Shown here: positions 9,093 to 52,177 of the stretch, in pieces
Position numbering within the stretch: the stretch's first letter is position 1
Layout of the letters: each line of letters starts with the position of its first letter
DNA from: Phycisphaerae bacterium
GTDB lineage: Bacteria > Planctomycetota > Phycisphaerae > UBA1845 > PWPN01
Assembly: GCA_018003015.1 (NCBI GenBank)
Contig: JAGNEZ010000015.1
Span: 1-64,000 of the forward strand
Direction: 5' to 3'
Length of the DNA stretch: 64,000 nucleotides
Notes under the pieces: generated by a model
What the model saw: only the letters and a program-made list of their open reading frames with translations
What the model was told of the DNA's origin: nothing
The model's database searches: none
Translations under genes and position numbers: made by a program

Positions 9093-9113
9093 TGTGGGGC
9101 CGCAGGTGCGCCT

Positions 9114-28628: not shown

Positions 28629-31600
28629 TTCACCCGGACGGTGAGCGTCGGACGCTCGGGCTTCGTCTGGATCGCCGACACCGGCGGGCCGTACTGATCG
28701 ACTTCCGGACCGAGCTGATCCACCGGCTCGTCGGAGCGCTTCTTCTGCTCGCCGGTCGGGCGCAGGACATCCACCGGACCGAACTGATCGGCATCGGGCT
28801 TGACCTGCAAACCCTGCATCAGCGGGCTGCGGCGAATGTTGTCGTTCAGTCCGGTCTGATCGCGCATCTCCAATGACAAGGTCCGGGCCTCTTCCGGGGT
28901 ACGAATCACATGCGGCGTGAGCATGATGATCAGTTCCGTTCTGCTCGTCTTGCGGGTCGAAGCCCGGAACAGGTTGCCAATGCCCGGTATGTCACCGACC
29001 AGCGGTACCTTGCTTTCGCTCTTGGTCTCGTTGCTGGTGATCAGGCCGCCGATGATGACCGTCTCTCCATCCTTCACCGTCACGGTCGTCTTCGCCGACC
29101 GCTCGTCGAACGTCGGCAGCGACACGCCCGTCGAGATCGTCACCGGGGATTGCCCGATCTGCGAAACCTCGGGGCTCACCTCCAGGTTGACGTACCCATC
29201 CGCGTTGACGATCGGCGTCACCTTCAGGATGACACCCACCTTCTCGTAGGTCACGCTCGGCGTGACGACACCGGAGGACGACACCACCACGTCCTGGACC
29301 GTGGGAACGCGCTGGCCAATGGTGATCTCCGCGTCCTGATTGTCCTGCACCATGATCGATGGGCGGCTGAGCACCTCAAGCTGGCCTTCCGCCTGCAGGG
29401 CATGAAACAGGAAGTCAAAATCTTCGCCCGTCACCGTGAAGGAAATGCCCGTCCCGCCGCTCTGCCCCAACGCCCCCACGCTTGTCCCGAGGATCTTGTC
29501 GAAGCCTTCCCCCTGGATGACCCCGTTGGGACCGGCGTACTTATTCTCGCTGAAGACCAGGTCCTGCAACGCGAACTCCATGCCTAGCTCGAAATTGTCG
29601 TTGATCGTGACCTCGGCCATCAACACCTGGATCATCACCTGAGCCGGGGCCCGATCCAGCTCATTGACCATGGCGACCACCTGTGATTCCATGCGCGGGT
29701 TGTAGCTCACCACCAGCGTGTTCGAGCCCTTGCCGCCTTCCTGGATGGTCACCTGGCGCATGAGCTGCCGGGACGCGGCCTCCCCCTTCTGGGCGGCCTC
29801 CATCGCTTGCTTCTCCTCGTCGAAGAACGCCTTCATCGCCGCGGCCACATCCTCCGACGTCCGGTTGCGGAGCTGGATCACCCGCTGCACCCGCTCCTCG
29901 ACCTCCTGGTAATCGAGCTTGTAGACCAGGTTCTCCACAATCCGCAAGTAGGCTGGACTGCCCGCGGCGATCAGCGAATTCGTCCGCTCATCGACCGAGA
30001 ACGTCAACTCCACGGCGGCGCCGGCCCCGCCTTCCGCAACAGTCCCCCCTGAGACCAGCAGAGGCGTCGAACCATCCGACGAACCGCTCTTGCTCTTGAA
30101 CAGGTCTTCCAGCAGGTTCTGGATTTCCTTTGCGTCCGAGTTGCGCAGCGGGAACACCATCAGATCCGCAGTCTGAGGCTCGACGCTGTCCAGCATCTCT
30201 ACCAGGGTCCGCAGCATCTCGATATGCTCTTCGGGGGCCAGAACCATCAACGAGTTCGTGTTCTTGTCCGGGGTGATGGTCACATCCTGGTACACCAGGC
30301 TGCGCATCCGCTCCTCGCCAGTCTTCGGGTCAATGCCGAGGAACTTGATGATCATCTGCTTGGCGTCGTCGCTCTGCTTGCCGGTGCTCGAACCCGCCTT
30401 CTGGAAGAAATCGTCGAGCTGTTTGGAGAGGTCCTCCGCCTTCGCGTTCCTCAGCCGGAAGACCCGCAGGCCCATCTCCGTCTTGACCCGGGTGTTGTCC
30501 AGCTTGCCGATGATCGTCCGCACATTCTCCATCAACGCCGGATTCGCCCACACGATCAGGGCGTTGGTCCGCTCCTCCGGCGTCACGGCAAATCCGCCCT
30601 TGTTCTTGCCCTGCTGCTGCTCGATCAGCTTGGTCAGCGTCTCGCTGATCGTCTTTGCCTTCGCGTCGGCCAGGGGGAAGATCTCCATCTGCTCAGCGAT
30701 CGTCGACTTGCGGTCCAGCAGCGAGATCAGGTGCTGGGCCATCTGATGATCGTCCATCGAGGCAGTGATCACCAGGCTGTTCGACTGGTCGTCGGCGATG
30801 ATGTTGATCGGCGTCCGCTTGCTCGACTCGCCCTGGGCCGAGCGCTTCTGGAACATCTCGGTCATCACCGGCTCGAGCTTGCTGGCCGCGGCTTCCTTCA
30901 GGGTGTAGACCTTGAAGGTGTACGCCGCGTCCGTGGTCTCCACGTCCAGCTTGGGCACCAACTCCTCCGCCCGCTTGATCGCGAAGCGGGCCCCGGTCAC
31001 GATCAGGGCCTTGCTCCGCGTATCCGGGATGATCGTGACCTCGAGCTGGTCTTTCTGATCCGAGCCCATGCCTGCCTGCATGCCCTTGAACATCTGCTGC
31101 AGCGTATCAGCCAGGCTCACCACGTCGGCGTATTTGACCTTGAAGAACTTCGCGTCCGCGGGCATGTTGGCGATGTCTTCCCGGTCGATCTCCTTCAGCA
31201 GGCTTTCGACGATCGCGAGGTTCTGCGGGCTGGCACTCACAACCAGCGAACTGCTCCGCACGTCGGGCACGACCGTCACCTTGGTCGCCGACTCGGGCAG
31301 GTCCTTCTTGTCGCCCGAACCGATGTACAGCCCCTTGTCGAACAAATCGGTGACCAGCTTGGCCGCTTTGCTGATGTCCGCGTTGCGGACGGGGAAGGTC
31401 CGGAACACACCGTCCGCCGAGGGGGGTACGTCGAGCTGGGCGACCAGCTTCTTCACTTCCTCGAAGGTGCTCTTCGACGACGCCACCAGCATCGTCCGGC
31501 TCAGGGCATCCTCGATCACCGTGATCCGGTCCGACGGCTGCTCCTCCTGGCCCTTGGCCAGGCTCTGCTTCAGACGCTCGGTGAACAGCTTGCGAACGAT

Positions 31601-33787
31601 TTCCGCCACCTTGGTGACATCGTTGTTCACCAGGGTGATCGACCGAATATCCGCCATCGGCGAGACCTTCTGGGCCTCCAGCTTCTGAACCAGATCCTGG
31701 ATCGCCGCAAAATCGTCCGGTGTACTGGCCACCACCAGCGCGTTGCTCCGCGTATCGCTCACGATGACCGGCTTGTCCTCCTTCAAGCCGCCCTGCCGCC
31801 GCGCTTCCGCCCGGCCGTCCCAGATCTCCTTGATCTTCTCGGCCATGTCCGTGGCCGCCAGATTGTCCAGGGTGATGATCTGGATGGCACCCAGCCAGGT
31901 GTCCTTGATCTCGTCCAGATCCCTGACCAGCTTGGACAGCTCCTCGAACTTGTCTTCCTTGGCAACGATGATCAGGCTGTTGGTCCGGGTGTCCGGAATG
32001 ATCAGGCTGCGCTCGCGCTCGGCCGCCGTGGGGCTCAAGGTCTTCTCCGCCACCTTCTGCTGCTGGTCGATCAGCTTCTGCACACCTTCCGCGACAATCT
32101 TGACGTCCGCGTGGGCCAGGGTTACCAGCTTGGGCGTGTATTGCCCTACCGTCTGTTCAATGTCAACCGACTTGACGATCTGCTGAACAAGCAGGATCTG
32201 CTCCGGCCGACCGGACACCACCAGGGTGTTGGTCCGCTTGTCCGCCGAAAAACCGATGTTGTAGGCCAGCGACTGCCCGATCACGTCGGGCGGCATACGT
32301 CCGGCCACGGTCTTGCCCGGCTGTTCCGGCAGGCGTTTGCCTTCCTCGAAAATGGCCTTCAACGAAGCCATTAGGGCGTCGGCGTCGGCGTGCTCCAGCG
32401 GGATCACCTTGACCACCATCGCATCCGCGATCGGCGCCGCGTCCAACAGATGGATGATCTCGCCCATCGGTCCCAGGTTCTTCTCCGTGGTCGCCACGAT
32501 GATCGAGTTCGTCCCGACCTCGCCGAAGATCTTGATCGGCTTGTCCAGATCCAAATCGCTCAACTGCTTGTCACTCCCGTCCGGACCCTTGCGAACCACC
32601 TGCAGCCGGCGGATCTGCTCCTTGATCGCCTTCGCGTCGTCGCTGTCGCGCTCCAGCATCTTGGTCAAGGCGTCGGCCAGATCCTTGGCGACAGCCTTCT
32701 CCAACGGGTAGATCCCCACCTTGACCACTGCCCCGCTCTCCGCGGTCGGCTCGACGTCCATCAGGCTGATCAGGTGCTTGATCTGCTCAAGATCGTCCGC
32801 GGGTGCCGAGATGAGCAGCATGTTTGTGCGGGCATCCGCCAGAATGGTAAACAGGTCCGCGCTCTGCTTCTTACGCTGAGCCAGACTCTTCAAGATGTCC
32901 TTCAGCTTCTGCTCGGCCTCGCCCGCCTTGATGTATTTCAACTGGACCGGCTCGAACTTGACCGTCCCACTCAACGACGGCTGATCGATCCCTTCCACAA
33001 TCGTCGTGATCAACTCCATGTTCGCCTCGGTCGCAGCGATCATCAGCAGGTTAGCACGCGGCTCAGGAATGATCGCCAGCCGGTCCTCGGGACGAAGCTG
33101 TCCGCTGGTCGGTTTCTTGACGTTGTTCCACAACTGCTCGATCTTCGTGGCCAGCTCGGCGGCGTCGCCCGACTTCAACTTGAAGATCTTGAACTCCGGC
33201 TTAAACAGCGGCTGCTGATCCATCAGGTTGATGAACGCCTCCAGAATCGCCAGGTCGTTCTCTTCGCCGGTCATCACCAGGGTTCCGTCGGAGGTCACCT
33301 CGATCTCCACCGGATTGCCGGAGAGCTTCCCGATGCTCGACACCATCGCGGCTGGAGTCTGGATGCCCGGCGGGCTCTGGAGCTTGGTCTCGGCCACCTT
33401 CTGCAGCCTGGCCAAGTCCGCCACGGAAGGTTGCGTGCTCGGCAAGCCAGCCTTGGCCGCGGTCGCCGGTTGGGTGGACGGCGGAAGCAGGGCAGTCACC
33501 GAAGTGGGGAACGGCGACGATTTGAGGCCGGGGCGATCCGCCGCCGGCCGGGTGGTCGAGGCCAAGGCCGAGGTGATCCTGGGACGAGCGGGAATCGGTC
33601 GCGGGGCCGCCGGCCCGGGGCCCTCAGCGGCCGGCCTGTCGCTATTGGCGGCCAGCGCCGCGTCCGGGCGCTCGCTGGGCACCACGGGTGCCAGCACCAC
33701 GTCCGCCGGCTGCTCGGCCGGACGCGTGGTTTGCCCGAGCAAGGCCTGTCCCAGAGCCAATGTCAGAACCATCCATGCTGATCGCAT
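28625..33787 (-). CDS. Mega-secretin: about 15 N-domain repeats plus secretin pore
   Basis: A 1720-residue secretin, about two and a half times the usual GspD length. A signal peptide (1-19) and an Ala/Pro/Thr-rich linker are followed from about residue 130 to 1380 by some 15 repeats of roughly 83 residues. Each has the N1-type pattern: a strand like VFPLRNADA, a helix, a variable charged loop, then a motif like DxRTNSLIVxA, a helix and a closing LD(V/R). The pore domain (about 1383-1630) has MIQVLMAEVTINDNFELG, LSRPSIMVQDNQDAEI, the VPLVGDIPGIGNLFR signature and LIIMLTPHVIRTP. A Pro/Gln/Asp tail follows. GGAGG precedes the ATG at 33787. It lies 149 bases after the giant repeat gene, and its stop overlaps a lipoprotein gene. 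Confidence 0.93.
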   Translation of the reverse strand: MRSAWMVLTLALGQALLGQTTRPAEQPADVVLAPVVPSERPDAALAANSDRPAAEGPGPAAPRPIPARPRITSALASTTRPAADRPGLKSSPFPTSVTALLPPSTQPATAAKAGLPSTQPSVADLARLQKVAETKLQSPPGIQTPAAMVSSIGKLSGNPVEIEVTSDGTLVMTGEENDLAILEAFINLMDQQPLFKPEFKIFKLKSGDAAELATKIEQLWNNVKKPTSGQLRPEDRLAIIPEPRANLLMIAATEANMELITTIVEGIDQPSLSGTVKFEPVQLKYIKAGEAEQKLKDILKSLAQRKKQSADLFTILADARTNMLLISAPADDLEQIKHLISLMDVEPTAESGAVVKVGIYPLEKAVAKDLADALTKMLERDSDDAKAIKEQIRRLQVVRKGPDGSDKQLSDLDLDKPIKIFGEVGTNSIIVATTEKNLGPMGEIIHLLDAAPIADAMVVKVIPLEHADADALMASLKAIFEEGKRLPEQPGKTVAGRMPPDVIGQSLAYNIGFSADKRTNTLVVSGRPEQILLVQQIVKSVDIEQTVGQYTPKLVTLAHADVKIVAEGVQKLIDQQQKVAEKTLSPTAAERERSLIIPDTRTNSLIIVAKEDKFEELSKLVRDLDEIKDTWLGAIQIITLDNLAATDMAEKIKEIWDGRAEARRQGGLKEDKPVIVSDTRSNALVVASTPDDFAAIQDLVQKLEAQKVSPMADIRSITLVNNDVTKVAEIVRKLFTERLKQSLAKGQEEQPSDRITVIEDALSRTMLVASSKSTFEEVKKLVAQLDVPPSADGVFRTFPVRNADISKAAKLVTDLFDKGLYIGSGDKKDLPESATKVTVVPDVRSSSLVVSASPQNLAIVESLLKEIDREDIANMPADAKFFKVKYADVVSLADTLQQMFKGMQAGMGSDQKDQLEVTIIPDTRSKALIVTGARFAIKRAEELVPKLDVETTDAAYTFKVYTLKEAAASKLEPVMTEMFQKRSAQGESSKRTPINIIADDQSNSLVITASMDDHQMAQHLISLLDRKSTIAEQMEIFPLADAKAKTISETLTKLIEQQQGKNKGGFAVTPEERTNALIVWANPALMENVRTIIGKLDNTRVKTEMGLRVFRLRNAKAEDLSKQLDDFFQKAGSSTGKQSDDAKQMIIKFLGIDPKTGEERMRSLVYQDVTITPDKNTNSLMVLAPEEHIEMLRTLVEMLDSVEPQTADLMVFPLRNSDAKEIQNLLEDLFKSKSGSSDGSTPLLVSGGTVAEGGAGAAVELTFSVDERTNSLIAAGSPAYLRIVENLVYKLDYQEVEERVQRVIQLRNRTSEDVAAAMKAFFDEEKQAMEAAQKGEAASRQLMRQVTIQEGGKGSNTLVVSYNPRMESQVVAMVNELDRAPAQVMIQVLMAEVTINDNFELGMEFALQDLVFSENKYAGPNGVIQGEGFDKILGTSVGALGQSGGTGISFTVTGEDFDFLFHALQAEGQLEVLSRPSIMVQDNQDAEITIGQRVPTVQDVVVSSSGVVTPSVTYEKVGVILKVTPIVNADGYVNLEVSPEVSQIGQSPVTISTGVSLPTFDERSAKTTVTVKDGETVIIGGLITSNETKSESKVPLVGDIPGIGNLFRASTRKTSRTELIIMLTPHVIRTPEEARTLSLEMRDQTGLNDNIRRSPLMQGLQVKPDADQFGPVDVLRPTGEQKKRSDEPVDQLGPEVDQYGPPVSAIQTKPERPTLTVRVK

Positions 33788-33936: not shown

Positions 33937-36900
33937 CTACCGCCCATAGCCGGTCTTCTGCCCGCCGCTCCGCTGCTGCTCGATCAGCTGATCCAGTACC
34001 TTCTTCATATCCTGGGGAGCGATGTTGACCGGCCGCACCACGCGGGCGCTCATGCCGCTCGTCGGCTTCATCTCCTGCAGCTTGTCCACCAGCTGCTTCA
34101 CCGTCGGGAACAGGCTGGGCGTACCGGCCACCATCAGCGCCGGCACGCGCTCGTCGACGCCGATGGCAATCTGGCCCGGCTTGTAGCCCGGCTGCTGTCG
34201 CTGCTTGGCCTGCTCGCCGGTGTTCACCGTCTTCTCGATTTCGGAGGCCAGCTGCCGAGCGTTCATCCCGCGCGGCAGTTGCACGACCTCCATGCCGCTC
34301 ATCTCGGTCTTGGTGTCGAGTTTCTCGGCCATCTCTTCGATCATCTTGTAATCAACGGTGCGAGCCCTGACAACGAGCGAGTTGGTCCCGTCGTCGGCCA
34401 TGATCAGCGGAATGGTATCCGTACCGCTCGTTCGGGTGCGGTTTTTCTCCGCCGGCTCGGTGAACATGCGGCTCAGGGTGGTCGCCAGCTGGGCGGCCGA
34501 GCCGTTCTTGATCGGGATGATCTTCGGCGCCGTTCCCGCACCGGGCATCTCCTTGTCCATGTTCTGAACGACCTTCTGAATGCGATCGATGGACGACGCC
34601 GAGCCGCTCACCACCAGGGCGTTCATCAGGGGTGACGCCTGGATACGAACACCGCCGACCAGATCCTCGCTCCCGCGGCCAGCGGTCGTGCCCGGCTTCC
34701 GCAGGTACTCGGACATGATCTTCTGAGTCTCCGCCGCGTCGATGAACTCCAGGACAATGACCCGCAGCTCCTCGACATTGGCCTCGTCCACCGGTTTGTC
34801 CAGTTCGGCCACCAGTTCCTTGATCGCGGCCATATCCTGCTTGTTGGCCGAGACCACGATCGAGTTGCTGTTGGTGTCCGCCCCGAAGGCCGGTGGCTGC
34901 TGGCCCGCCCGGCCCTTGGTCCGGTAGGTCGCCTGCAGCACCGGGTACAGGTCCGCCGCCCGGGCGTTCTTCAACCGGAGGATTTCCTGCTGGGGAACAC
35001 CGGTTCCGGACACATCCATCTCCTTGATCAGGGCGGCGATCTTCTCGTGGTTCTCCGCCGAGGCCGTGACCACCAGCGTGCTGGTCGCCGGCTCGACCGA
35101 GGTCACCACCTGATCGCGCTGGCCGAGCGTCTTGTTGGCCTCGAATCGGGCGTCGATCACCTTCTGCATGGCGGTCAGGTCGACATACTGGATCGGATAG
35201 GTTTTGATCGACCGTTGAGTCTCGCCTACCTGGGGAATGTCCAGCTGGGCGATCAGGGCCTTGATCTCCTTCATGGATTCGTCGTTGTTGGCGGTCACGA
35301 GCAAAGCGCCGGAGGCATCGTTCGACGACACGGTCACCGGATAGGTGCCCGTTCGCCTGTCGACCTTCATGCTCGCCCTGATCATCTTGTCCAGGGTCTT
35401 GGCCAGCTCCGAAGGAAGCACGTTCTTGATCATCACCGTTTCCGGAGCGGTCAGCCGGGACCCCTTGATCTCCGCCGTGTCCAGTTCCGCCACGATCTTG
35501 GAGACCCGCTCGTGGTTCTCTGAGGAGGCAGTGACCAGGAGGGCGTTGTTGGTGGCGTCCGCCGTGAAGGTCACCTGATCCTGGATCGGCCGGTTGGCGT
35601 TGTTCGAGAACCGGGCGGTGATCGCCGTGACCACCGATTGCAGTTCCGCATACTGCAAAGGGTACGGTTTGACGGTGCGGTCCTTGTCCATCGGCGGCTC
35701 GATATCGAGCTGGGCGATCAGGGCCTCCGCCTCTTTCATGTCCATTTCGTTGGCCGTGATCACCAGCGTATTGGAGGCGTCATTGGCGGCTGCCGTGATC
35801 GGGTACAGACCGGTCTTCTGATCACGCTTCTTGCTCCGCTGGATCATCGCGTTCATCGTCGTCGCGACGTCCGAGGCCTTGGCGTGCTTGAGAACGACGG
35901 TCTTGGGGATCACCACACGATCCAGATTGCTGATGTCCAGTTCCTTGATGATCGCCGCGACTTTCTCGTGGTTCTGGGGCGACGCCGTGACCAGGAGAGC
36001 CATATTGACGTAATCCGGGGTCAGACTCACCTGATCGTGGATCGGGCGCTTGGCGTTGTCCTGGTACCGCGCCGTGATCGCGGTCGTTGTCGACTGGAGG
36101 TCGGCGTAGCGCAATGGATAGGACTTCACCACCCGCTCGATCGCCGCGGCCGGCTGGCTGTCGAGATTGCTCACCATGGCCCGGATCTCGTCCATATCCT
36201 TGGCGCTGTTGGCGGTCAGCAATAAGGTGTTCGACTGATCGTCGGCCGTGACCGACACCGGATACGTGCCTGTCACCCGGTCCCGTCGCATCGTCCGGCT
36301 GATCATCTCGGTCAGCGTTCGGGCCAGATCAGAAGCCTTGGCGTTGGCCAGGTGAATTGTCACCGGGGCGGTGATCTTGTTGGCATCCGGATTGTCAATC
36401 TGGCTGAGCAGCTTGGTGATTTGCTCCATCTCGTCGGCCGGGGCCTTCACCACGATCGCCTGCGTGCCGTATTCCGCCGCGATGGTCACCTGTTCGTTGG
36501 CCGGCACCCGGCTCCCCGTCTTGGCGAAAACCTGGGTCAGCGCCTGCACGGTGTAGCCGAGGTCGGCGAACTTGACCGGAATCACCCTGGTCTGCTGGCC
36601 TCTCGGCGTCGCACCTTCCACGTCCAGGCTAACCAGCAAGTCGTCGATCGCCTTCTTGTTGTTCGCACTGCACGTCACCAGCAGCCGCTTGGTGGACGGC
36701 TCGGGGGTGATCGAGACCGTCATCTCCGCCGGTGCGATAGTAGCCCCGGACTTCGTCAGGGCCGTAAACCGCTTCTGGAACATCTTGTCCAGAGTCTCCG
36801 CCACCTCATCCGCGTTGGCGAACTTCAGCGGGATCTGGTAGTCATTGACCGTGATCGCAGCCGGCGGCTGCGGAATCGCTCCCTCCAACGGGTCGATGAT

Positions 36901-39900
36901 CTTGTTCTTGATCTCGTCGATCTGAGCTCTGGTGCCGGTCACGTAGACGACGTTGGCGCTGGCCTCCGCAGCGGCCTTGGGTGGCAGCATGCCGTGAACA
37001 AACTGCTTCCCGGAGTGCAAGGCATTGATCGTCGCCGCCACCGAGGTGGCCTGGCCCCTGACCAGGGTGAACATCTGGGTCGTCACCGTGGTCACATCCG
37101 GCGGAGGCGCGTCCAGGTCGGCCAGCACCTTGGTCACGGCCAGGAAGGTCGCGGGCGTGCCCGCCACGATCAGCGAGTTGGTCCGCTCGTCGGCGGTCAC
37201 GGCATACACATCGGAGGCAATCGCCCCACCGCCCGAGCGAGTGACCTGAATCATCATCTCCTTGAACCGCGACAGAACCTCCTGAGCGGTTGCATGCTTC
37301 AGCTTGAAGACCTGGATGTCGCTCGTCGTGGTCTTGTCCATGGTCTCGGCCAGGCCCTTGATTTCGTCGAAGACCGCGGCCGGGGCACTGACAAACAGCA
37401 TCTTGCTGCTGTCCTCACCCACGATCGTGACCCTCTGCTTGCCGCCCTTGCCGCGAGCCCCGCCCGTGCCGGTCCTGCTGCCCAGGAAGATCTCCTTGAG
37501 CTTGTCCGCCACGGTCGAGGCATTGGCCACTTTGAGCTGGATCTGGTGCGGCTTGACGTCCTGCCCCACCTCGTCATCCAGCTGCTTGATCTGCTCCGCG
37601 ATCAGTTTCTGCTGAGCGTCCGGTGCCCACACCACGATGCTGTTGGTCTCCGAGTTCGGCGTGATCCGAATCGCCAGCGAACCCGTCGCCTTGGGATCAT
37701 CCACATGAACCGCGCGCAGCGTCTCCGCGGTCGTCGTCGCGTCGGCGTGCTCCAGAGTGTAGATCTGGGCCTGACCCTTGTCCGGGGCGACGTCCAGCTT
37801 GGTGATAATCGGCTCCACCTTCTCCATGTCTGGCAGGAGAGCCCGAACGACCAGGGTGTTGGTCCGCGCGTCGGCGGCCACGGTGACCGCGCCCATCCGC
37901 GAAGGGCGAATGACTTCCCCTCCGCCGGCCCCCATACGACCGCCGCCACCTCCACCGCCGCTGTCGGTCCGGAAGATCCGCTGCAGTTCCGTCGCCACCT
38001 TCTCCGCGTCACCATACTTCAGTGGGAAGGTCTTGATCTGCGACGGGATGTCCTGAGCCTCGAGGTTGTCGATCAGCTTCTCCACCAGCTTCATGCCGTC
38101 CTGCGGAGCGGAAACGATGATGCTGTTGGTCGTCCCGTCCGAGGTGATCGTGATTTCCTTGGCCGGATTCAGCTTCAGCTTGCCCTTGACGTCCCCCTCG
38201 GCGCCGGGCGTGGCCGCGTCGCCACCCAGCATGCCGGAGGCCTGCATCTCGAGCATCTCCTGCTCGAGCTGTTCGATCAACGCATCGGCGTTGCCCATCA
38301 TGCCCGGCATCCCGGGGCGCATCATGCTGGGCCGCGTGCGCAGGGTTCTCGTCCGGGTATCCTCGATCTTGAGAATCGCCTTGATCGCCTGCTCGACTTC
38401 ATAGGCATTCAACTTCTTGAGCTGGAAGATCTTGATGTCCACCGGCGGCTTGTCGCTCGGCCGGTCGATCTTGAGCAGCAGTTCGGCCACCGGCTGGAAA
38501 TCCTCCTTGGCCGCGCGGACAATCAGGGTCTGATCGCGCGGGTTGGGGAAAATGCGAATCCGTTGTCCGCCGGGCGCGGCCTGAGCCTGCTCGGCCTCCT
38601 TGCGGGCCTGCTCTTCGTCGCGCCGGCGCTTGCCGCCGCCTTCTTCGTCCTCTTCTTCCTTCTTGTCCTTGGCCCCGCCAGCTTGCGGCTTTCTGGCATC
38701 CGGCTGCGCGGCCTTCTTGGGCTGCGCCGGCTGCTTGTCGTTGAACATCTGCTCCAGGATCGTGGCCGCGATGCTCACGTCCAGATACCTGAGCCGGAAC
38801 ACGCGTACATCGCTTGGAGCCTCCTGCAGCTCCTCGAAGTTCTCGATGATCCTGTCCAGCGTATCCTGGAGCTCCTGGACTGCGGATGGATCGCCCAAGA
38901 AGTAGATCAAACCCGACTCCTCGTCGTACTTGACCTGCACATTCCCAGTCTGGTAGGCCTCCGCGGCCGCCCGTCCGATCTCGATCTTGGTGCGCTCCTC
39001 CGCGGACATCTCCGACTCCGCGGGGGCGTTGGCGGCGGGATCCGGAGCGGGCGACGGCGATCGCGCTTCGACACCCTGCGAGCCACGAGGTGTCTTCCCG
39101 TGGTCTTCAGCGGCGGGTGCCGCGGGAGCGGGTGTAACCGGCGTCGGTGCCGGTACCGGGGGCGGAGGTGCAGTCACAGGTTGTGGGACGGACGCTGCAG
39201 GCTGCGGAGCAGGAGCGGCGGTCACGGGCGCGGGCGCCACCGGGGCCGGAGCAGCTGCCGCCGGCTGAGTCGCCGGAGATGCCGCCACCGGCTGAGAGCC
39301 GGGGGCGGCCGGTTGTGGGGCCGGGGCGGTTGCCGCCGGCTTCGGTGCCGGTGCAGGCGCCGCCGCAGGCCGAGTCGCTGGAGCGGGAGTAGCCGCGGGT
39401 TGCGAACTTGCGGCCGTGGTCGGTTGGGCCGCTGGCTCAGCCACGGTGATCTTCACCGCCCCCGCCCAAGCGAATCGGGCAATGGCATCCGTCAGGGGGC
39501 GCAGTTCGGAGCTCGGGGCAACCACAGGTGCGTTGTTCAGCGACGTCGTTCTGACGCCCGGTACGCCCACCGGCGCCGCGGGCTGAGTCGTCGAACGATA
39601 GTCGGGTTCCACAATCGGATCGGTGTAGTTGATCTCGTTCAGCATGTCGAGCGGGTTCTTCCGTCCGGCCGCCTTCGGAATCGCCGACACCTTGAACTTG
39701 TTCTGCATCTCTGCCGGGGCCGCCTGCTGCATCATCTCCACCATGCGGGCCACGTTGGTCCCTTTGGGAACCTGCTTGACCGACATGGTGACCGGGGCTC
39801 GGATATTCTGCTTCTGCAGCCGGACCAGCCACTCCTCAACCAGCGTGAAGTGTTGCGGCTTGCCTTCCACGATCACCTGGTTGGCGATCGGGAAGCTCTT

Positions 39901-42900
39901 CACGTATGGCGAATCCGAATAGCCGATCAGATCGATGAGCACGCGATCGAGATACTTGGCGATGGTCTCCGCCGAACCCTCGACATCGTATACCTTGGTG
40001 ATGTTGCCCTTGCGGCTGGTCACCACGGCACCCATGCGGCTGGTGTGGGTATCCTCGGCCGGCTTGGCCAGATCCTCCTTCATCTTGATGATCTCTTCGA
40101 TCAGCGGGAACTTGTCCTGCGGTGCCGAGACGATGATTCGCTTACTGGCGTACTCCGTCTGAATGACCACCGGCGTCGAGCCGCGCGATCTCCGTCTGCT
40201 CCCCGACCCTCCGTAGCCGACCGAGGAGTAGTCGTAATCACTGCTGCTGTAGCCGCTGCCGCCCGCCTCGCTGGCCCCGGCGATGTCCTCGAGAGCGCTG
40301 ACCACTTCGTACAGGTCCGCATACTGGAGGGCGAAGACGCGCAGAACCGGCCCTTCGGGCTTGGCCTGGGCATCAAGGCTCAGCACCAACCGCTCCCCCT
40401 CGGCCACCTTGTCATTGGGCCCACGCAGAATGATCATGTTGCTCGACTCGACCGGCGTCGCGGAAAGCTGCTCGGCATCGCTCGAGCCGCTGCTCCGACT
40501 CATCATCCCGCCGCCCCAGGGTGACCACTCACCCCGCCAGCCATCTCGTCCGCGACGCCCGCCCCAGCGCGAACCGCCGCCGCTTGACTTGTTGACCTGC
40601 TCCTCGACGATCTCGGCGATCTCCTCCGCCCTGGCCGTCTTGAGCGTGATCATCCGCATCGTGGACGGCTCGGCTGGCCTGTCGAACTCCTTCAGCAGTT
40701 CGTCGACCAGCGGCAACAGGCTCTCCGGCGCGGACACCATGATCCGCCGACCGGTCCGGTGGGCGTTGACCCGGGGCCCGTCGGACATGCCGCCGAAGCC
40801 GCCGTACCACCCGCCGCCGCGCCGCCCGCCGCTCTTCTCCTTCAGCTCCTGGAACTTGGCCTGCAGGATCGGCTCGAGCATCTCCGCGATGTCGTCGGGC
40901 CGGGCGTCCTTCAGGTCATAGTGGCGGATCACCATCGAGGTGTCCGGCCCGCTCTGCTTGATCATCTGCTGGACGATCGGATCGATCTCCGCGATCTTCT
41001 CCGGCGGGGCCGAGACCATCAGAATGTCGCTGTTGTAGCTGCCGATGAACTTGACGCCGTCCCTCGATCCTCGCCGCCCCCATCCGTCACCCCTCGTCCC
41101 CACCGAGTACAGCTGCTCGAGGTTCCGGGCGATTTCCGATGTGCCCTGATAGTCGGAGCTCTCGACCTTGTAGCTGCGGATCTCGTTCTTGCCGCTCGGA
41201 TTGGTGTCCAGCAGGGCGATGAACTTCTCGATCTCCGCCATCTTGTCCTGCGGCGCGCTGACCACCAGCCCGTTGCCGACCTCGGTCATCTTGATGCTGC
41301 CGGGCGTCGACGAGGAGGACGAGGAGTCCCACCATCGCCGACGGTCGCCGCCGCCGCCCGAGGTGAACATCGTTTCGATCGCGCTGCGGACTTCCTCGGC
41401 CTCCGCGTGCTGCAGAACGAACGTCTTGCGCACGAACTCCTGGGCCGCGTACAGGTCGTCGATCTCCTTGGCGTATTTCTCCGCCTTCTTGAAATCCTCC
41501 TCCGAACTGGTGATCAGGATGCGGTTGCTCACCGGCTCGGCCACCAGCGAGATCGGCACTTTCGGAGCGCTGTCGCCCATGCCCATGCTGTACATGCCGA
41601 AATCGCCGAATCCCCCGCGGCGCCCGCCGCGGCGCCCGCCGCCGCTCTCCGGGAACAGACCCTCCAGCTTCTCGATCACATAAGCGGCCTCGGCCGTCTT
41701 GAGCTGGATCACCCGCAGCTCGGCTTGGTCAGCGGCGCTGGGCTGGTCCAGCTGCAGGATGAGTGCGGCGACCTTCTCGTGAATCTCGTCATTCGCCGAG
41801 ACGATCACCACGTTGGTCTGTGGATCGAAGCGGAACTTGGCGTCCGCCGATTCCCCACCGCCGTAGCCCATGCCCCACCGCGAACGTCCGCCGCCCCCGC
41901 CGAACGACTCGGTCAGGATCTGGGACACGTTGCCTGCCCCCGCGTGCTTCAGCTTATACAGCTTCGTGGTCTTGTCCACATCGGCGCTGGTGTCGAGTTC
42001 CTTCATCACCCGCTCGATGTCCGTCCACATCTCCGGGGTGCTGACCACGATCAACGTCTTGGAGCTGTCGTCCGAGATGAACTTGGGAAGACCACCCTCG
42101 CCCGAACTCATCCCCCCCCCGCGGTAGCCGCGGCCGCTGTAGCCGTACCCGCTGTAGCCGCCGCCCCCGCCGCTCTTCTCGCCGAAGCGGCTCATCAGCG
42201 TCATGGCCATGTCCGTCGGTGTCGCGTGCTTGAGACGCACCAGATGCTCAACCGCGCCCGCTTCCGGATCCACGTCCAGCTTGGCAATCAGCTTCACGGC
42301 ATCGTCGAGGTCCTTCTTGTTGCCCATCAGGATGAGGGCTCGGTCGTTGGCCACATCCGGAATCGCTCGGAAGTCGGCATCCTGGCTGCCGCCCCCGCCG
42401 TAGGCCCGTCCGCCGGATGAACCTCGCGACGAGAAGGTCGTGCTCAGGATCCCCGCGATGTTGGACGCGCTGCCATGCTTGAGAACGATATACTGGTACG
42501 CCTCTTCGTCGGCGGGCACATCCAGGAGCTCGATGAACTCCTTGACTCGGACCATTTCGTCCGACTTGGCCTTGACCAGAATCGACCGGCTCTGCTCCAG
42601 CGGCGTCAGCACCGCGGTGGTGCCCACGTTGATGACCCGTGGCGGCTGCCGAGGCGGTGGGGGCTGACCCGGCTGGGCCACGGGCTGCGGTACCTCGATG
42701 ATCTTCTGCTCGCCGAGCATCGGACGGATCATCTCCGCCAGCTTGGTCGGCGAAGTGTGCTCGAGCTTGATGACTTCCAGCTGGCCGATCTTCTCCAGAG
42801 GCAGGTCAATAAACTTCTCCAGGTACTCCGCCACCAGCTTGTGCTTGGATGGAGTCGCCCGAATGAGCAGCCGGTTCAGCCGGCTGTCTTCGTTGATATC

Positions 42901-44661
42901 CACCATGTCGGCACTGGAGACCGCGACCACCGGGGCCGGCGCGGGTGCCGGGGGGGGCGCCCCCGGGGGGCCGCCCCGCCGCCCGCCGCCCGCCGGAGTG
43001 GGCGCATTGGTGATCGAGACGCCTCCCTCGGTCGGCGGCAGAATCTGCCGCAGATCCTGGGCCGCGTCCTGCGAGGAGGCGTATTTCAGCGAGTAGACGC
43101 GGAGTTCTCGCCCGTCGCCTTCGGTATCCACATCGATGAGGTGCAGATACTCCAGCTGCTGGTTCAAGAAATACACAAACCCCTTGAGTTCGATGGCGTT
43201 CGAATTCGGAACCGTCGTCGCCCGAGCCGCGTTCACCGGCACCAGGTCCACCGCACGTTCGGCCAGCATCTGGGCCGGCTGCTGCTTCGGCTCGTAGGAG
43301 ACCGAGGCCATCTCCCAGTCCGGGAGCTTGGCCGCCTCGTACTCCTTCTCCGTCCGATAGATCCGCTTCGGCGGAATGTGCCGATACCACTCGGTCAGCC
43401 GACGAATCTCCAGATAGCTGTCCCGCTGAATCACCCAGGCGTCCAGATCGAAGATGATCTGGTTGAACTGCAGCAGGGCCTCGTCGTACTTCATGATCTT
43501 GACGCTCTCAAACGTGATCGGCTTGGGAGCCTTCACGTCCAAGGAGCCCTGCCCGAGCATGCTGAGACCGGTCATGGTCTGCAGATCCCGGCACATGTCC
43601 TCGAACGAGGCGTTCTTCCAGGCGAAGAAGTACGGCCTCTCGTTGTAGGGAAGCGTCCACCAGCCCGTCTGTTTCTTCAGTTCCGCGGCCAGGTTCGGCG
43701 CCCCGGTCTGCGGGTGGCGCGGGATCGTCGCGTCCTTGGGCGCGTTCGATGTCGGACCGGGCACGCCTCCAATGGCGCTCGCCGGCTGCGATCCCGGAAC
43801 ACCGGTCACCGGAGCATGAACGCCCGGAGTCGTCGAACTCGCGCCCGGCGTCGCCGGCACCCCTGCCGGCCGGCTCGACGGTCCGCGAAACGTCGTGCCC
43901 GTTGTCCCGGGACCCGTGTGACCACCGGCCGGTGAAGATGTGGTCGAATGCCCCGGCTGAACGCCGGGTTGGACCGCCCGGCCACCGGGGCCGCCCGGCT
44001 GGACGCTTCGACCCTGGCCCGGTACGCCCGGCTGAGTCGTCGGCGGGTTCGCCTTGATTTCGTTCTCCAGGGCATCCAGCTCATTCTGGTCGACGGTCGG
44101 TAACTGCCGGGCATCCAGCCGCATACCCTCAGGGGTTGGCCCTTCATCGGGCGGAGGCACCGCCGGTTTCACCGGGCTGTTCACCGGCTCGGGGCGGACT
44201 CGGGGAGCACGACGGATCGAAGGTTGTGTCGCGGGAGGCATGCCGGACGGACGGCTGGCGGTGATGGGATTCACCGGAGGTGGGGTCACCGGACGCACGC
44301 GGGGGCCACTACGATACCGTTGATCCGACTGCCGACGCTGCTGCTCTTCCGCCTGCCGACGCTCCAGCTCGGCCTGTCGGAGCTCCTCCTGAGCCTGCTC
44401 ACGCTCCTCCTGGGCATGCTGACGAACGAACTCTGGATCGGCCATCGCCTCGTCAATCTCTTTCAGTAGCTCGGCCTCGGTCTTCTCGGGCGGCGCCGCC
44501 TCCTGCTCGGCAGGTGCCGTGGTCGGATTCTGAGCCGCAACTTCAACGCGCCAGGCCAGGCTGACGCCCATCCACAGGCCGGCCGCCGCCCATATCGTCA
44601 ATGGCAGAACCACCGGCATTCGCCGGCTGACCTGCATCGTCGTCGTTCGCTTGTTTGCCAT
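33937..44661 (-). CDS. Giant 3574-residue protein of about 33 secretin N-domain-like repeats, no pore
   Basis: One uninterrupted frame. Order: a membrane anchor or signal peptide (16-37), an acidic coiled-coil (61-116), a Pro/Gly/Thr-rich spacer to about 310, an N0-like domain (FAWKNASFEDMCRDLQ), then a first block of about 13 repeats (450-1735), a Pro/Ala linker (1738-1886) and a second block of about 20 repeats to the end. Repeats of 70-110 residues share a strand-helix-loop-strand-helix plan with motifs like RTNTLVV, ending LD(V/I). Repeats in the first block carry Gly/Ser/Arg/Tyr loops. There is no secretin signature (VPxxGxxPxxGxLF) anywhere and no enzyme motif. GGAGG lies upstream of ATG 44661. 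It probably spans the periplasm from an inner-membrane anchor and stacks on the mega-secretin; the function is inference. Confidence 0.9.
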   Translation of the reverse strand: MANKRTTTMQVSRRMPVVLPLTIWAAAGLWMGVSLAWRVEVAAQNPTTAPAEQEAAPPEKTEAELLKEIDEAMADPEFVRQHAQEEREQAQEELRQAELERRQAEEQQRRQSDQRYRSGPRVRPVTPPPVNPITASRPSGMPPATQPSIRRAPRVRPEPVNSPVKPAVPPPDEGPTPEGMRLDARQLPTVDQNELDALENEIKANPPTTQPGVPGQGRSVQPGGPGGRAVQPGVQPGHSTTSSPAGGHTGPGTTGTTFRGPSSRPAGVPATPGASSTTPGVHAPVTGVPGSQPASAIGGVPGPTSNAPKDATIPRHPQTGAPNLAAELKKQTGWWTLPYNERPYFFAWKNASFEDMCRDLQTMTGLSMLGQGSLDVKAPKPITFESVKIMKYDEALLQFNQIIFDLDAWVIQRDSYLEIRRLTEWYRHIPPKRIYRTEKEYEAAKLPDWEMASVSYEPKQQPAQMLAERAVDLVPVNAARATTVPNSNAIELKGFVYFLNQQLEYLHLIDVDTEGDGRELRVYSLKYASSQDAAQDLRQILPPTEGGVSITNAPTPAGGGRRGGPPGAPPPAPAPAPVVAVSSADMVDINEDSRLNRLLIRATPSKHKLVAEYLEKFIDLPLEKIGQLEVIKLEHTSPTKLAEMIRPMLGEQKIIEVPQPVAQPGQPPPPRQPPRVINVGTTAVLTPLEQSRSILVKAKSDEMVRVKEFIELLDVPADEEAYQYIVLKHGSASNIAGILSTTFSSRGSSGGRAYGGGGSQDADFRAIPDVANDRALILMGNKKDLDDAVKLIAKLDVDPEAGAVEHLVRLKHATPTDMAMTLMSRFGEKSGGGGGYSGYGYSGRGYRGGGMSSGEGGLPKFISDDSSKTLIVVSTPEMWTDIERVMKELDTSADVDKTTKLYKLKHAGAGNVSQILTESFGGGGGRSRWGMGYGGGESADAKFRFDPQTNVVIVSANDEIHEKVAALILQLDQPSAADQAELRVIQLKTAEAAYVIEKLEGLFPESGGGRRGGRRGGFGDFGMYSMGMGDSAPKVPISLVAEPVSNRILITSSEEDFKKAEKYAKEIDDLYAAQEFVRKTFVLQHAEAEEVRSAIETMFTSGGGGDRRRWWDSSSSSSTPGSIKMTEVGNGLVVSAPQDKMAEIEKFIALLDTNPSGKNEIRSYKVESSDYQGTSEIARNLEQLYSVGTRGDGWGRRGSRDGVKFIGSYNSDILMVSAPPEKIAEIDPIVQQMIKQSGPDTSMVIRHYDLKDARPDDIAEMLEPILQAKFQELKEKSGGRRGGGWYGGFGGMSDGPRVNAHRTGRRIMVSAPESLLPLVDELLKEFDRPAEPSTMRMITLKTARAEEIAEIVEEQVNKSSGGGSRWGGRRGRDGWRGEWSPWGGGMMSRSSGSSDAEQLSATPVESSNMIILRGPNDKVAEGERLVLSLDAQAKPEGPVLRVFALQYADLYEVVSALEDIAGASEAGGSGYSSSDYDYSSVGYGGSGSRRRSRGSTPVVIQTEYASKRIIVSAPQDKFPLIEEIIKMKEDLAKPAEDTHTSRMGAVVTSRKGNITKVYDVEGSAETIAKYLDRVLIDLIGYSDSPYVKSFPIANQVIVEGKPQHFTLVEEWLVRLQKQNIRAPVTMSVKQVPKGTNVARMVEMMQQAAPAEMQNKFKVSAIPKAAGRKNPLDMLNEINYTDPIVEPDYRSTTQPAAPVGVPGVRTTSLNNAPVVAPSSELRPLTDAIARFAWAGAVKITVAEPAAQPTTAASSQPAATPAPATRPAAAPAPAPKPAATAPAPQPAAPGSQPVAASPATQPAAAAPAPVAPAPVTAAPAPQPAASVPQPVTAPPPPVPAPTPVTPAPAAPAAEDHGKTPRGSQGVEARSPSPAPDPAANAPAESEMSAEERTKIEIGRAAAEAYQTGNVQVKYDEESGLIYFLGDPSAVQELQDTLDRIIENFEELQEAPSDVRVFRLRYLDVSIAATILEQMFNDKQPAQPKKAAQPDARKPQAGGAKDKKEEEDEEGGGKRRRDEEQARKEAEQAQAAPGGQRIRIFPNPRDQTLIVRAAKEDFQPVAELLLKIDRPSDKPPVDIKIFQLKKLNAYEVEQAIKAILKIEDTRTRTLRTRPSMMRPGMPGMMGNADALIEQLEQEMLEMQASGMLGGDAATPGAEGDVKGKLKLNPAKEITITSDGTTNSIIVSAPQDGMKLVEKLIDNLEAQDIPSQIKTFPLKYGDAEKVATELQRIFRTDSGGGGGGGRMGAGGGEVIRPSRMGAVTVAADARTNTLVVRALLPDMEKVEPIITKLDVAPDKGQAQIYTLEHADATTTAETLRAVHVDDPKATGSLAIRITPNSETNSIVVWAPDAQQKLIAEQIKQLDDEVGQDVKPHQIQLKVANASTVADKLKEIFLGSRTGTGGARGKGGKQRVTIVGEDSSKMLFVSAPAAVFDEIKGLAETMDKTTTSDIQVFKLKHATAQEVLSRFKEMMIQVTRSGGGAIASDVYAVTADERTNSLIVAGTPATFLAVTKVLADLDAPPPDVTTVTTQMFTLVRGQATSVAATINALHSGKQFVHGMLPPKAAAEASANVVYVTGTRAQIDEIKNKIIDPLEGAIPQPPAAITVNDYQIPLKFANADEVAETLDKMFQKRFTALTKSGATIAPAEMTVSITPEPSTKRLLVTCSANNKKAIDDLLVSLDVEGATPRGQQTRVIPVKFADLGYTVQALTQVFAKTGSRVPANEQVTIAAEYGTQAIVVKAPADEMEQITKLLSQIDNPDANKITAPVTIHLANAKASDLARTLTEMISRTMRRDRVTGTYPVSVTADDQSNTLLLTANSAKDMDEIRAMVSNLDSQPAAAIERVVKSYPLRYADLQSTTTAITARYQDNAKRPIHDQVSLTPDYVNMALLVTASPQNHEKVAAIIKELDISNLDRVVIPKTVVLKHAKASDVATTMNAMIQRSKKRDQKTGLYPITAAANDASNTLVITANEMDMKEAEALIAQLDIEPPMDKDRTVKPYPLQYAELQSVVTAITARFSNNANRPIQDQVTFTADATNNALLVTASSENHERVSKIVAELDTAEIKGSRLTAPETVMIKNVLPSELAKTLDKMIRASMKVDRRTGTYPVTVSSNDASGALLVTANNDESMKEIKALIAQLDIPQVGETQRSIKTYPIQYVDLTAMQKVIDARFEANKTLGQRDQVVTSVEPATSTLVVTASAENHEKIAALIKEMDVSGTGVPQQEILRLKNARAADLYPVLQATYRTKGRAGQQPPAFGADTNSNSIVVSANKQDMAAIKELVAELDKPVDEANVEELRVIVLEFIDAAETQKIMSEYLRKPGTTAGRGSEDLVGGVRIQASPLMNALVVSGSASSIDRIQKVVQNMDKEMPGAGTAPKIIPIKNGSAAQLATTLSRMFTEPAEKNRTRTSGTDTIPLIMADDGTNSLVVRARTVDYKMIEEMAEKLDTKTEMSGMEVVQLPRGMNARQLASEIEKTVNTGEQAKQRQQPGYKPGQIAIGVDERVPALMVAGTPSLFPTVKQLVDKLQEMKPTSGMSARVVRPVNIAPQDMKKVLDQLIEQQRSGGQKTGYGR
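35005..36400 (-). repeat. Threefold higher-order repeat (A-B pairs) inside the giant gene
   Basis: Three successive units of about 460 bases each encode one A-type and one B-type N-domain. A-type repeats share TGxYPVTxxxNDASNTLxxTAN and an end like ALIAQLDI; B-type repeats share PLxYADLQS, RPIxDQV and ASxENHEKVAxII. DNA landmarks for the B-type end recur near 35050, 35510 and 35967. The pattern shows recent duplication of a two-domain unit. Confidence 0.8.
39005..39450 (-). repeat. Pro/Ala-rich linker coding region within the giant gene
   Basis: About 150 codons of Ala/Pro/Gln/Thr (blocks such as APAPQPAA and SQPAAT), joining the two halves of the giant repeat protein. The composition predicts a stiff, extended, disordered linker like those in TonB. 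Confidence 0.8.
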
Positions 44662-44688
44662 TGGTCCGTGACCTCCAATCACGCCCTC

Positions 44689-45990
44689 TTAACTGGGGCT
44701 TGGCTTTATACCCGAAGCCTGCTCCGCCAGTTTCATGACCTCGTGGTAAATGAGTGGCTGGGTGTCTTCCGTCAGATCCTGGCAGTCCTTCAGGGCCTTG
44801 CCGAGTTCGTGGAAGTGCCGCCGACCGTCGGCGCTTTCGGTGACGGCTCCCTTGGGATGAACGTAAACCAGCGTACCGCCGTAGACTTCTTCCCCCACTT
44901 CCTTGTACTGATCTTCTCCCACCTTGGGTGCATTGGGCTGCGGCCGCGGATTCTCGAGCACGACCAACTGCCCGCGTGGCGAACTCAGGACCCGCCCCAG
45001 AACCATCTGAGCGTCCTTGGGAGGAGCGGTCGGCACGGGCGGCTGCTGGACCACCACCGGCTGAGTCGCCGGGCTGCCGCTGAAGATCGCTCGGATCGTC
45101 TTGTTCGCGTCCACCTTGAGCTGCCCGGGAAGCATCGAACCGATCAGGTCGCCTTCCCAGCGCTCGAACTTGAAGCCGGGGTGTGGGGTCACGTTCACAC
45201 TGACTGAACTGCCCTCCGGGTACCTTGGCATCGGTGGTACCAGGCCGACCACGCCGGCGTTCGGAGGCTGGGCCGACACGCTGATGGCGAACTGTTCCGG
45301 CCGGTAAGGCTGAAACATCTTCTTGGCCAACAAGGGTTTATAGTCGTCCAGCTTGGCCAGCTTGGTCCGCCCAACCTCCTGGCGCTTGCCCTCATCGAGC
45401 CCCGCCTTCTCCACCGCTGGAGCCAACTGGCTGGGCGGGAGAATCAGCGTCTCCAACTGCGCGGTCATCTTCAGCAAGCCCTGGGCGGCCTCCTCTTTTC
45501 GTTTGTCCTCCTTGCCGGTCAGCCGAATCGCCTGACCCAGCGTCAGACCTGTGCACCGCACCTGGTACGGCTGGCGATACAGGTTGAACAAGAAGGCGAC
45601 CACCTCGTTCAGCTTGGCGGTTGCCGTCACGGTGGCCGGCAGGCGGCGAATGCCGTTCTTCTGATAAGATCGGACCTGGTGCAGACTGATCTGCACATCC
45701 TGGAGCCGGGCTTGCTGCGTCTGCTCGTAGAGCTCCTCGCGCAGCCGCGTCATCGCCTCGTTCGGGTCCATCGATAACGTGCTTGGCCCGATCTCCCGAC
45801 GCCAGCGATCGGTATTGACGACCGCCCGAACCTGCTCTGACTTGATCGTGGCCAGATCCTTCTTCAGGGACTTGATCTTGGCGTCGTAACCTCGGAGGGA
45901 GTTCCGGTATAGAACCACACCCGTCCGGCCAAGGAACACCGCCATGGCCGCCAGCAGAAGCCCGATCATCAGTCGTTCGCGAGAGTTCAT
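44689..45990 (-). CDS. GspM/GspC-like fusion with InlB-type domain (cluster II)
   Basis: A 433-residue inner-membrane protein. An N-terminal helix (MIGLLLAAMAVFLGRTGVVLY) and coiled-coil are followed by a PilO/GspM-like domain (TVTATAKLNEVVAFLFNLYRQ-type segment near 118-140). Residues about 233-302 look like a divergent InlB B-repeat (YPEGSSVSVNVTPHPGFKF, then WEGD and DANKTIRAIF). The C-terminal part (about 325-410) resembles the GspC homology region (MVLGRVLSSPRGQLVVLEN, then VGEEVYGGTLVYVHP). In cluster I the GspM-like and GspC-like functions are two genes; here they appear joined. It lies 1 base after the GspL-like gene and 27 before the giant gene. Confidence 0.78.
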   Translation of the reverse strand: MNSRERLMIGLLLAAMAVFLGRTGVVLYRNSLRGYDAKIKSLKKDLATIKSEQVRAVVNTDRWRREIGPSTLSMDPNEAMTRLREELYEQTQQARLQDVQISLHQVRSYQKNGIRRLPATVTATAKLNEVVAFLFNLYRQPYQVRCTGLTLGQAIRLTGKEDKRKEEAAQGLLKMTAQLETLILPPSQLAPAVEKAGLDEGKRQEVGRTKLAKLDDYKPLLAKKMFQPYRPEQFAISVSAQPPNAGVVGLVPPMPRYPEGSSVSVNVTPHPGFKFERWEGDLIGSMLPGQLKVDANKTIRAIFSGSPATQPVVVQQPPVPTAPPKDAQMVLGRVLSSPRGQLVVLENPRPQPNAPKVGEDQYKEVGEEVYGGTLVYVHPKGAVTESADGRRHFHELGKALKDCQDLTEDTQPLIYHEVMKLAEQASGIKPSPS

Positions 45991-45991
45991 G

Positions 45992-47533
45992 TCACTTCTT
46001 CTTCGCCGGCGCAGGCTTCTGACCGATCAACACCGTCACCTGGTCCTTGAACGGGTACTCCGATACCGTCGATGCGTTGCCTCGGCCGGGCAGTGCCCCA
46101 CCCCAGACCAGCTTCTTGTCCTTGTCGCGCATCGCCGTGAGCGCCTCGATCAGCCGTGTTCCGACCTTGTCGTTCTTGGTGGCCAGCTCGATCCTGGCCT
46201 CGCCTTTCTCGCTGCACTCCAGCCGGGTGATGTAGGCTTCCTTGTTGGATGGAAAGACCTCGGACAAAGCATTGAGCCGGTCGATCCAGACGAGATTCTG
46301 GCTCTGCCAGCCATCCACGTCCTTGACCAGTTTCTCCAGCTGCTGGCGCGCCTCTCGGTCGGTGTTCTCGTATTTCTTCCGGGCCTCCAGCGCCGCAATC
46401 TCCGCCTTTCTTTCCCTGATCGGGTTGTAGGCCAGCACGCCCGCCGCGGCGACAAACAGGGCCGCGGTCACGACGACCAGAGGTCTCTTCCGCCGGCGAA
46501 CACGCTGCGCCGCTTCCGGCTCCTTGGGATGGATGAAATCAAAAAACTGCATCTCCTGGGATATGCTTCCCTGAGCCAGTCCGATCGCCGCACTGAAGGG
46601 CGCTGCGCTCACGCCCTTCTCCCTTCGCCACCTGAGCCCGGGCGGAGGCTCATAGATCGTGGCCGGGGCCCCGAATTGCTCCTCGAACCGGGCCGCCACG
46701 CGCGCGTCGATGCCCTCGGTTCCCGCCAGCACGATCCGGTCGATCGTCGCCCCCGGGTCGGAAGCCCGGTACGCCTGAACCGTCCGGTTCACCTCAATGA
46801 TCAGGGCTTCCATCGGCGCCGGTCGGGCAAAGCCCTCGTCGCTCGATGCCCCGGCTTCTTCCGACGCCGGCCGCCCCCCTTTCTCGCTCAGCCCGCCCGG
46901 TGGAATCGACACCGAAGCCGCCCGGGAGTACACCAGCCGCCCTTGCTGGATCACGTTGATCTCAGTCATCGCCGCCCCGACGTCGACCATCAGCGTCCGC
47001 CCTTCGGCCACCTGCTCGGGCGTCAGGGCCGCAAGGTTGGCATAAGGGCGAAGACCGATGCGCTCGAGCTTGAGCCCGGCCCCGGTGATGACCTGCCGAT
47101 AGCGGTCCACCACCGCGATCCGGATCGCCGCCAGCCAGACGTCGCACATCCCGCCGCCACCCGCGCCCTCGCCCCCGGCCAGGGCGAAATCAACCACCGC
47201 CTGGTCCTTCGGGAACGGCAACTCCTTGCCTGCCTGGACGTGGACCATCATGGTCATCTCTTCCAGGCTTCCCTTCGGCAGCGAGATCAGGTTGAACACC
47301 GCATCCTGGCGCGGAACATCCACGATCGCCCGGCGCGTGCGGATACGATGCTCGGCCAGGGCCCGCTTGAGAAACTCGCCCAACGACCCCGGATCGCGCG
47401 GGTTCACGCCTTCACCCAGCGGAACGTACACCGCCTTGCGAATCCGCACGCTGGACCGCGAGTGGCTCGCGTCTACGATGCGCAGCGAGCGCTCGTCAAA
47501 GTCTATGCACACGATACTGCGGTCACGGAGCAT
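45992..47533 (-). CDS. GspL-like protein, PilM-PilN fusion (cluster II)
   Basis: A 513-residue protein with an actin-like PilM domain: VCIDFDERSLRIVD near the start, RAIVDVPRQDAVFNLI, VQAGKELPFPKDQAVVDF, TLMVDVGAAMTEINVI (phosphate-binding) and RIVLAGTEGIDARVA. It has a better-preserved nucleotide site than the cluster I copy. A membrane helix (PLVVVTAALFVAAAGVLAY, about 362-380) and a PilN-like periplasmic domain with a coiled-coil follow. The expected role is to recruit the assembly ATPase. It overlaps the gspK-type gene by 11 bases. Confidence 0.88.
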   Translation of the reverse strand: MLRDRSIVCIDFDERSLRIVDASHSRSSVRIRKAVYVPLGEGVNPRDPGSLGEFLKRALAEHRIRTRRAIVDVPRQDAVFNLISLPKGSLEEMTMMVHVQAGKELPFPKDQAVVDFALAGGEGAGGGGMCDVWLAAIRIAVVDRYRQVITGAGLKLERIGLRPYANLAALTPEQVAEGRTLMVDVGAAMTEINVIQQGRLVYSRAASVSIPPGGLSEKGGRPASEEAGASSDEGFARPAPMEALIIEVNRTVQAYRASDPGATIDRIVLAGTEGIDARVAARFEEQFGAPATIYEPPPGLRWRREKGVSAAPFSAAIGLAQGSISQEMQFFDFIHPKEPEAAQRVRRRKRPLVVVTAALFVAAAGVLAYNPIRERKAEIAALEARKKYENTDREARQQLEKLVKDVDGWQSQNLVWIDRLNALSEVFPSNKEAYITRLECSEKGEARIELATKNDKVGTRLIEALTAMRDKDKKLVWGGALPGRGNASTVSEYPFKDQVTVLIGQKPAPAKKK

Positions 47534-52167: not shown

Positions 52168-52177
52168 CGCGCCCACC

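Follow-up and report, generated by a model that had tools for sequence, protein, structure and literature searches.

The window, which is the whole stretch of 64,000 nucleotides of Phycisphaerae DNA that was analysed, carries on its minus strand a giant N-domain gene at 33937..44682, encoding 3581 aa when counted from a GTG. From the ATG at 44661, the protein (33937..44661) has 3574 aa, which is the length given in the initial annotation of this DNA. The Pfam scan recognised 29 independent Secretin_N stretches in the giant (837.9 bits), and a repeat model built from the window found 31-33 N-domain copies, in agreement with the earlier description of a coiled coil, an N0-like domain and about 33 N repeats in two Pro/Ala-linked blocks. 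The Secretin domain PF00263 was absent in the Pfam scan of the whole protein, so the giant has no secretin pore, as had been proposed. The N terminus (44533..44661), read from the translation, had been called a membrane anchor; an N-terminal segment is present, but it looks like a cleavable signal peptide ending in ...AWRVEVAA, with QNPTT as the first residues after the cleavage site. It is followed by a charged Glu/Gln/Arg-rich stretch, a probable coiled coil, and then a Pro/Gly-rich region (44317..44487, also read from the translation). The putative N0 domain and the first N1-like domain lie at 43111..43653, the extra N1-like domain being placed at residues about 455-524. The repeats form two blocks at residues about 528-1625 and 1960-3536. 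Block I consists of about 12 Secretin_N domains (39808..43101; Pfam and repeat model), followed by an N domain into which a long Pro/Ala-rich linker is inserted (38818..39807). Block II consists of about 20 Secretin_N domains (34075..38805) and includes tandem two-domain units, the number of which differs between genomes. At its C terminus, the giant ends with half an N domain (beta1-alpha1, ARVVRPVNIAPQDMKKVLDQLIEQQR; 33967..34047).

The next gene in the direction of transcription (28625..33787, minus strand) encodes the mega-secretin of 1739 aa, with 15 N domains (14 Secretin_N stretches by Pfam) and PF00263 at residues 1482-1648. It begins with a signal-peptide-like N terminus, MRSAWMVLTLALGQALLG followed by QTTRP (33734..33787). 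Then comes half an N domain (beta2-beta3-alpha2; 33209..33319), which would complement the C-terminal half of the giant, and after it block III of 14 further Secretin_N domains (29645..33190) and the outer-membrane barrel domain (28865..29644). Directly downstream, with an ATGA overlap, a lipoprotein is encoded at 27999..28628 on the same strand. Its homologues were found downstream of the secretin gene in all 15 genomes examined, both split and fused, which makes it a candidate pilotin.

On the other side of the giant, the core genes of a type II secretion system (T2SS) are clustered on the minus strand. The gene directly before the giant (44689..45990) encodes a membrane protein that resembles GspM/PilO, a likeness to GspM by position and layout, and its periplasmic part carries a Flg_new_2 (InlB B-repeat-like) domain. 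It is preceded by genes for a PilM/GspL-like protein (45992..47533), a GspK-like minor pseudopilin (47523..50096; Pfam), three further genes in the pseudopilin position, one of them with an N_methyl motif (50093..52969), the major pseudopilin GspG (52981..53436) and the platform protein GspF (53473..54675). The GspK-like protein is unusually long (857 aa), nearly twofold the K protein of the second cluster (467 aa). The mega-secretin next to the giant was correctly recognised at the outset; of the GspM/C-type genes then named, the GspM-like one is present, but GspC was not found in the Pfam scans of the cluster, where a divergent GspC could escape detection. GspE is not adjacent to the cluster within the window; the genome has 17 T2SSE-type matches. 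In two related genomes (G016 and G019), judging from ORF order, E- and F-position genes stand at the head of the cluster. A second T2SS cluster, of conventional composition (E, F, G, H, I, J, K, PilM/N-like and GspD), lies 14 kb away at 2127-14864 on the plus strand, opposite to the giant, and the genome has six secretin matches altogether.

The giant frame is, judging from its conservation, a real gene and not an assembly artefact, because a copy in a genome of the same genus is 95.4% identical with a dN/dS of 0.126 over 3583 codons, and frames with the N0 region occur throughout the order. The sole large difference between the two copies is an insertion of 152 aa, which equals one two-domain unit. 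The N0 region was present in 85 of 101 relative genomes, all Phycisphaerae MAGs of the Planctomycetota, mostly in frames of 2500-5200 aa.

The arrangement of the two genes was surveyed by a six-frame scan of regions from 21 relatives. In families f1 (that of the window), f5 and f8, the gene for a pore-less giant (24-55 N domains) and the gene for a secretin (12-16 N domains) directly follow one another in this order. Families f4 and f7, on the other hand, have a single frame of 4494-4933 aa, which encodes N0 and the pore together with 36-43 N domains. The totals are in agreement: the split pairs have 39-41 N domains in f8, 45-49 in f1 and 69 in the f5 pair. The latter is found in G016 (joined from L026, L024 and L025), where a giant frame of 5021 aa with 55 N domains precedes a secretin with 14. 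From a named collection, 80 further loci were added, many of which could be scored; the set for the tree held 27 split and 27 fused rows in all. Apparent giants without a secretin in G006, G017 and G096 were set aside as sequence gaps, since the frame meets a run of N just before its end. Outside the order, uninterrupted single chains occur in Phycisphaerae, with 4217 aa and 42 N domains at locus L136 and with 4616-5073 aa and 49 N domains at L133-L135 and L137. The longest chain found, at L140 (G328:C18, 943-19449, minus strand), occupies an 18.5-kb frame and has 6169 aa with N0, 63 Secretin_N domains and the pore. The N-domain number in the class ranges from 22 to 69. In a phylum-wide sample of 199 genomes, all secretin frames longer than 1413 aa belonged, among the matches listed, to the class of the window; in a class-wide sample, frames of 3000-6169 aa were observed in many families. 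Two loci with a Phycisphaerae-type secretin carry titles that look wrong, namely L084 (JANQQE010000004.1, titled Alphaproteobacteria) and L115 (CALQCP020000085.1, titled Chitinophaga pinensis).

A third form was observed in G013 (family f2 of the same order), where three consecutive genes (L138, 3118-15660) encode proteins of 1290, 1254 and 1605 aa, each break lying inside an N domain. The first protein has N0 and 10 N domains. The second has its own signal peptide, half domains at both ends and 14 N domains, and the third has its own signal peptide, a half domain at its start, 15 N domains and the pore. The first of these breaks appears to coincide with the site of the Pro/Ala linker in the giant of the window; there would therefore be two break sites, both in N-domain loops, and three modular blocks.

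In all nine split genomes inspected (f1, f5 and f8), the last element of the giant is the beta1-alpha1 half of an N domain, and the secretin protein opens with a signal peptide, usually followed by a Pro-rich linker, before the beta2-beta3-alpha2 half (GNPVEIEVTSDGTLVMTGEENDLAILEAFINLMDQQP in the window). The fused relatives have the same two halves on either side of a long linker, and at L136 this domain is unbroken and contains a loop of about 45 aa. The domain assignment beside the break was made with two profiles, a well-anchored one (B) and a less specific one (A), the N domains being mutually alike. A hydrophobic segment, absent from the outgroup chains, is present in most fused linkers of f4 and f7. 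The pattern A-x-A/G-Q follows this segment in 11 of 11 f7-type proteins, as it does in nine of 10 signal peptides of the separate later genes; the pattern is permissive, and the weight lies on the hydrophobic stretch preceding it. The segment is more degraded in f4. Judging from these sequence features, its most plausible interpretation is the signal peptide of a second gene, either a relic or still cleaved. An internal translation start in the fused frames was not favoured, as ATG is not conserved at that site. Shortly before the internal segment, the fused f7-type proteins share a motif near GDAxWTxxRRYE (seen in the linkers of G032, G018, G059, L068, L072, L077, L081 and L090), which is a possible processing signal.

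In the AlphaFold model of the fused junction of G032, beta1-alpha1 lies at residues 84-110 and beta2-beta3-alpha2 at 249-279, separated by a disordered linker with the signal helix, and pLDDT is 58-69 in both halves, which is moderate confidence. One N1 domain of InvG (108-173) aligned with residues 85-284 of this model over 64 residues at 3.2 A with a Z of 7.1, below the tool's own caution level of 8. In the model, both halves would thus form one N1 fold. The model of the Pro/Ala linker of the window likewise brings both N-domain halves together, and the N1-N2 pair of GspD (3ezj) aligned across this linker over 123 residues at 5.8 A with a Z of 8.6.

The N-terminal domain of the giant matched the N0 domain of the second GspD of the window with an hhalign probability of 92-94%, while shuffled controls gave at most 0.3% and other N domains at most 0.4%. 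Support from a first PDB profile search was discarded as partly circular, since the window's own GspD was in that alignment; a search with a profile of the giants alone, from which this GspD was left out, returned no match for N0 in the PDB. The N0 assignment therefore rests on the hhalign tests and is supported as a remote similarity. N0 occurs once per system, either on the giant or on the fused N terminus, and never on the mega-secretin.

The single N domains also have positional identity. For 39-40 of the 45 recognised N domains of the window's pair, the best match in another genus scored above any other domain of the own pair, and the best matches between genera are mostly in order, except in a short array of two-domain units. 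This is the pattern that would be expected for specific rings along an axis. A tree of 77 rows separates the outgroup single chains (99) from a split and a fused group, which are sister to each other (89 and 81; all values SH-aLRT, no bootstrap). With three more rows, the split clade was kept (81) and the fused families were no longer one clade. The two trees thus give different answers on the monophyly of the fused families, which bears on the order of fission and fusion.

We hypothesize that the giant forms the inner-membrane-proximal portion of an oversized type II-like secretin, which is made as two separately exported polypeptides and assembled as a stacked tube with joined halves, and we consider this reading as a whole likely. 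The giant and the mega-secretin are very probably one secretin, of which the giant would be the N0-bearing part, because sister families encode both in one frame, other Phycisphaerae encode one chain, and the cut lies inside one N domain. The combined chain runs from N0 through block I, the Pro/Ala linker and block II to the gene break, and then through block III to the pore. If GspD and PilQ are a guide, equivalent N domains of neighbouring protomers would associate into a ring, and the rings, about 47 in number, would be stacked along one axis as a tube through the periplasm. The GspF/L/M platform would be the docking site of N0, the mega-secretin would be the outer-membrane gate, and the pseudopilus would drive the secretion of folded proteins. 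The two chains would be held together at the break, because it falls in the loop between alpha1 and beta2 of a single N domain, to which the giant would give beta1-alpha1 and the mega-secretin beta2-beta3-alpha2. Such half-domain complementation is reasonably probable, and a full stack of rings, drawn from the analogy, is what we would cautiously favour. Assuming 2.5-4 nm for each of about 47 rings, the length of the tube would come to about 120-190 nm, far beyond known secretins. A bolder version is doubtful, namely that a trans-periplasmic tube over 100 nm long with about 40-70 rings and interlocked half domains is built in two or three parts in all lineages of the order, the fused forms being polyproteins cut by signal peptidase at the internal signal.

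It is also conceivable, though unlikely, that only block III and the pore form rings, and that blocks I and II are a flexible string or sheath that bridges a wide and variable periplasm between the inner-membrane platform and the outer-membrane ring. The long Pro/Ala and other disordered linkers between the blocks would suit such a tether, as would the variation of N-domain number by two-domain units even within a genus, and a periplasm more than 100 nm wide is not known in these species. However, the linkers lie inside N domains whose halves meet in the models, so the chain returns to the same point, and most domains keep their positional identity across genera, as for specific rings and not for a generic string. 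We regard it as very improbable that the giant is an independent periplasmic or surface protein which borrowed N domains and merely neighbours the secretin. Its own signal peptide and stop codon and the missing pore could be read in this way, but whole sister families encode giant and secretin as a single fusion, the split interrupts one domain, only the giant carries N0, and in the split genomes the two genes lie side by side. A periplasm-spanning extension or scaffold of the channel had been suggested initially; the extension is retained in the two-chain secretin proposed here, and the independent scaffold was dropped because fused orthologues exist in f4 and f7. The search for homologues with the same gene neighbour, proposed together with that suggestion, bore out the adjacency in f1, f5 and f8. 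It is scarcely credible that the split reflects a single gene in decay or an error of sequencing: some MAG frames are indeed short or end at runs of N, but 27 split loci come from many MAGs, the second gene has its own signal peptide, the giant is under purifying selection, and the split genes group in the tree (SH-aLRT 81-89).

By comparison with known secretins, the pair belongs with the T2SS-type secretins, to judge from its domains, neighbours and scores. The GspD model of NCBIfam (cut-off 351.35) gave 658.6 for the giant and 635.4 for the mega-secretin, sums of a kind that repeats inflate. With TIGR02515 (IV_pilus_PilQ, cut-off 284.35), the giant scored 169.7, below the cut-off, and the mega-secretin 291.1, just above it, and Pfam did not report AMIN in either protein. 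On its own, the giant does not qualify as a secretin: the defining barrel is missing, as PF00263 lies in the next gene (in the same chain in fused relatives), and the secretin would be the pair. As in GspD (E. coli 5wq7, ETEC 5zdh), the Secretin_N domains are N1-type, N0 is first and the barrel last in the combined chain, and the neighbours include GspF, G, K and L/M-like proteins. Unlike GspD, which has about three N1-type domains, the pair has about 47 N domains in two (or, in f2, three) exported chains broken inside an N domain, with long linkers in N domains and no GspC found. The second GspD of the window (11784-14864, 1026 aa) also has N0, six Secretin_N matches and PF00263; in contrast to the pair, it is a single chain of conventional layout, encoded on the opposite strand in a separate E-to-D cluster. 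Secretins assemble from 12-19 identical subunits, with the N domains arranged in stacked rings, and PilQ of Thermus thermophilus, with six rings and 350 A, was called one of the largest characterised secretins (PMC5745081). It resembles the proposed tube in its extra N domains stacked as rings and in spanning most of a wide periplasm (PMC5745081), but its six rings are in one chain of 757 residues, as against 22-69 N domains in the class, and the pseudopilins here are T2SS-type. The Deinococcus secretin DR_0774 (8co1) is likewise an extended N-domain secretin and a structural and sequence match, but it is a single polypeptide of 740 residues with far fewer N domains.

In the literature searched (open-licence papers), no description of giant or planctomycetal secretins was found, so the architecture is undescribed there, as had been supposed; it is not unique to this genome, however, but common to much of the class. 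An enlarged periplasmic space was shown for planctomycetes in Planctomycetia, and not in the class of the window (PMC5394234). No link to the crateriform structures of Planctomycetia is claimed, because in the phylum sample long secretin frames were listed only in the window's class. What is new is a class of Planctomycetota with secretins of 22-69 N domains, which in one order are split at the same loop of the same domain. The single-chain maximum of 63 ring domains is about ten times that of the six-ring secretin (PMC5745081). The finding makes testable how secretins are lengthened, whether their length is related to the enlarged periplasm of planctomycetes, and whether a channel can be held together by half domains on separate chains, and it may offer a natural design for a segmented protein tube.
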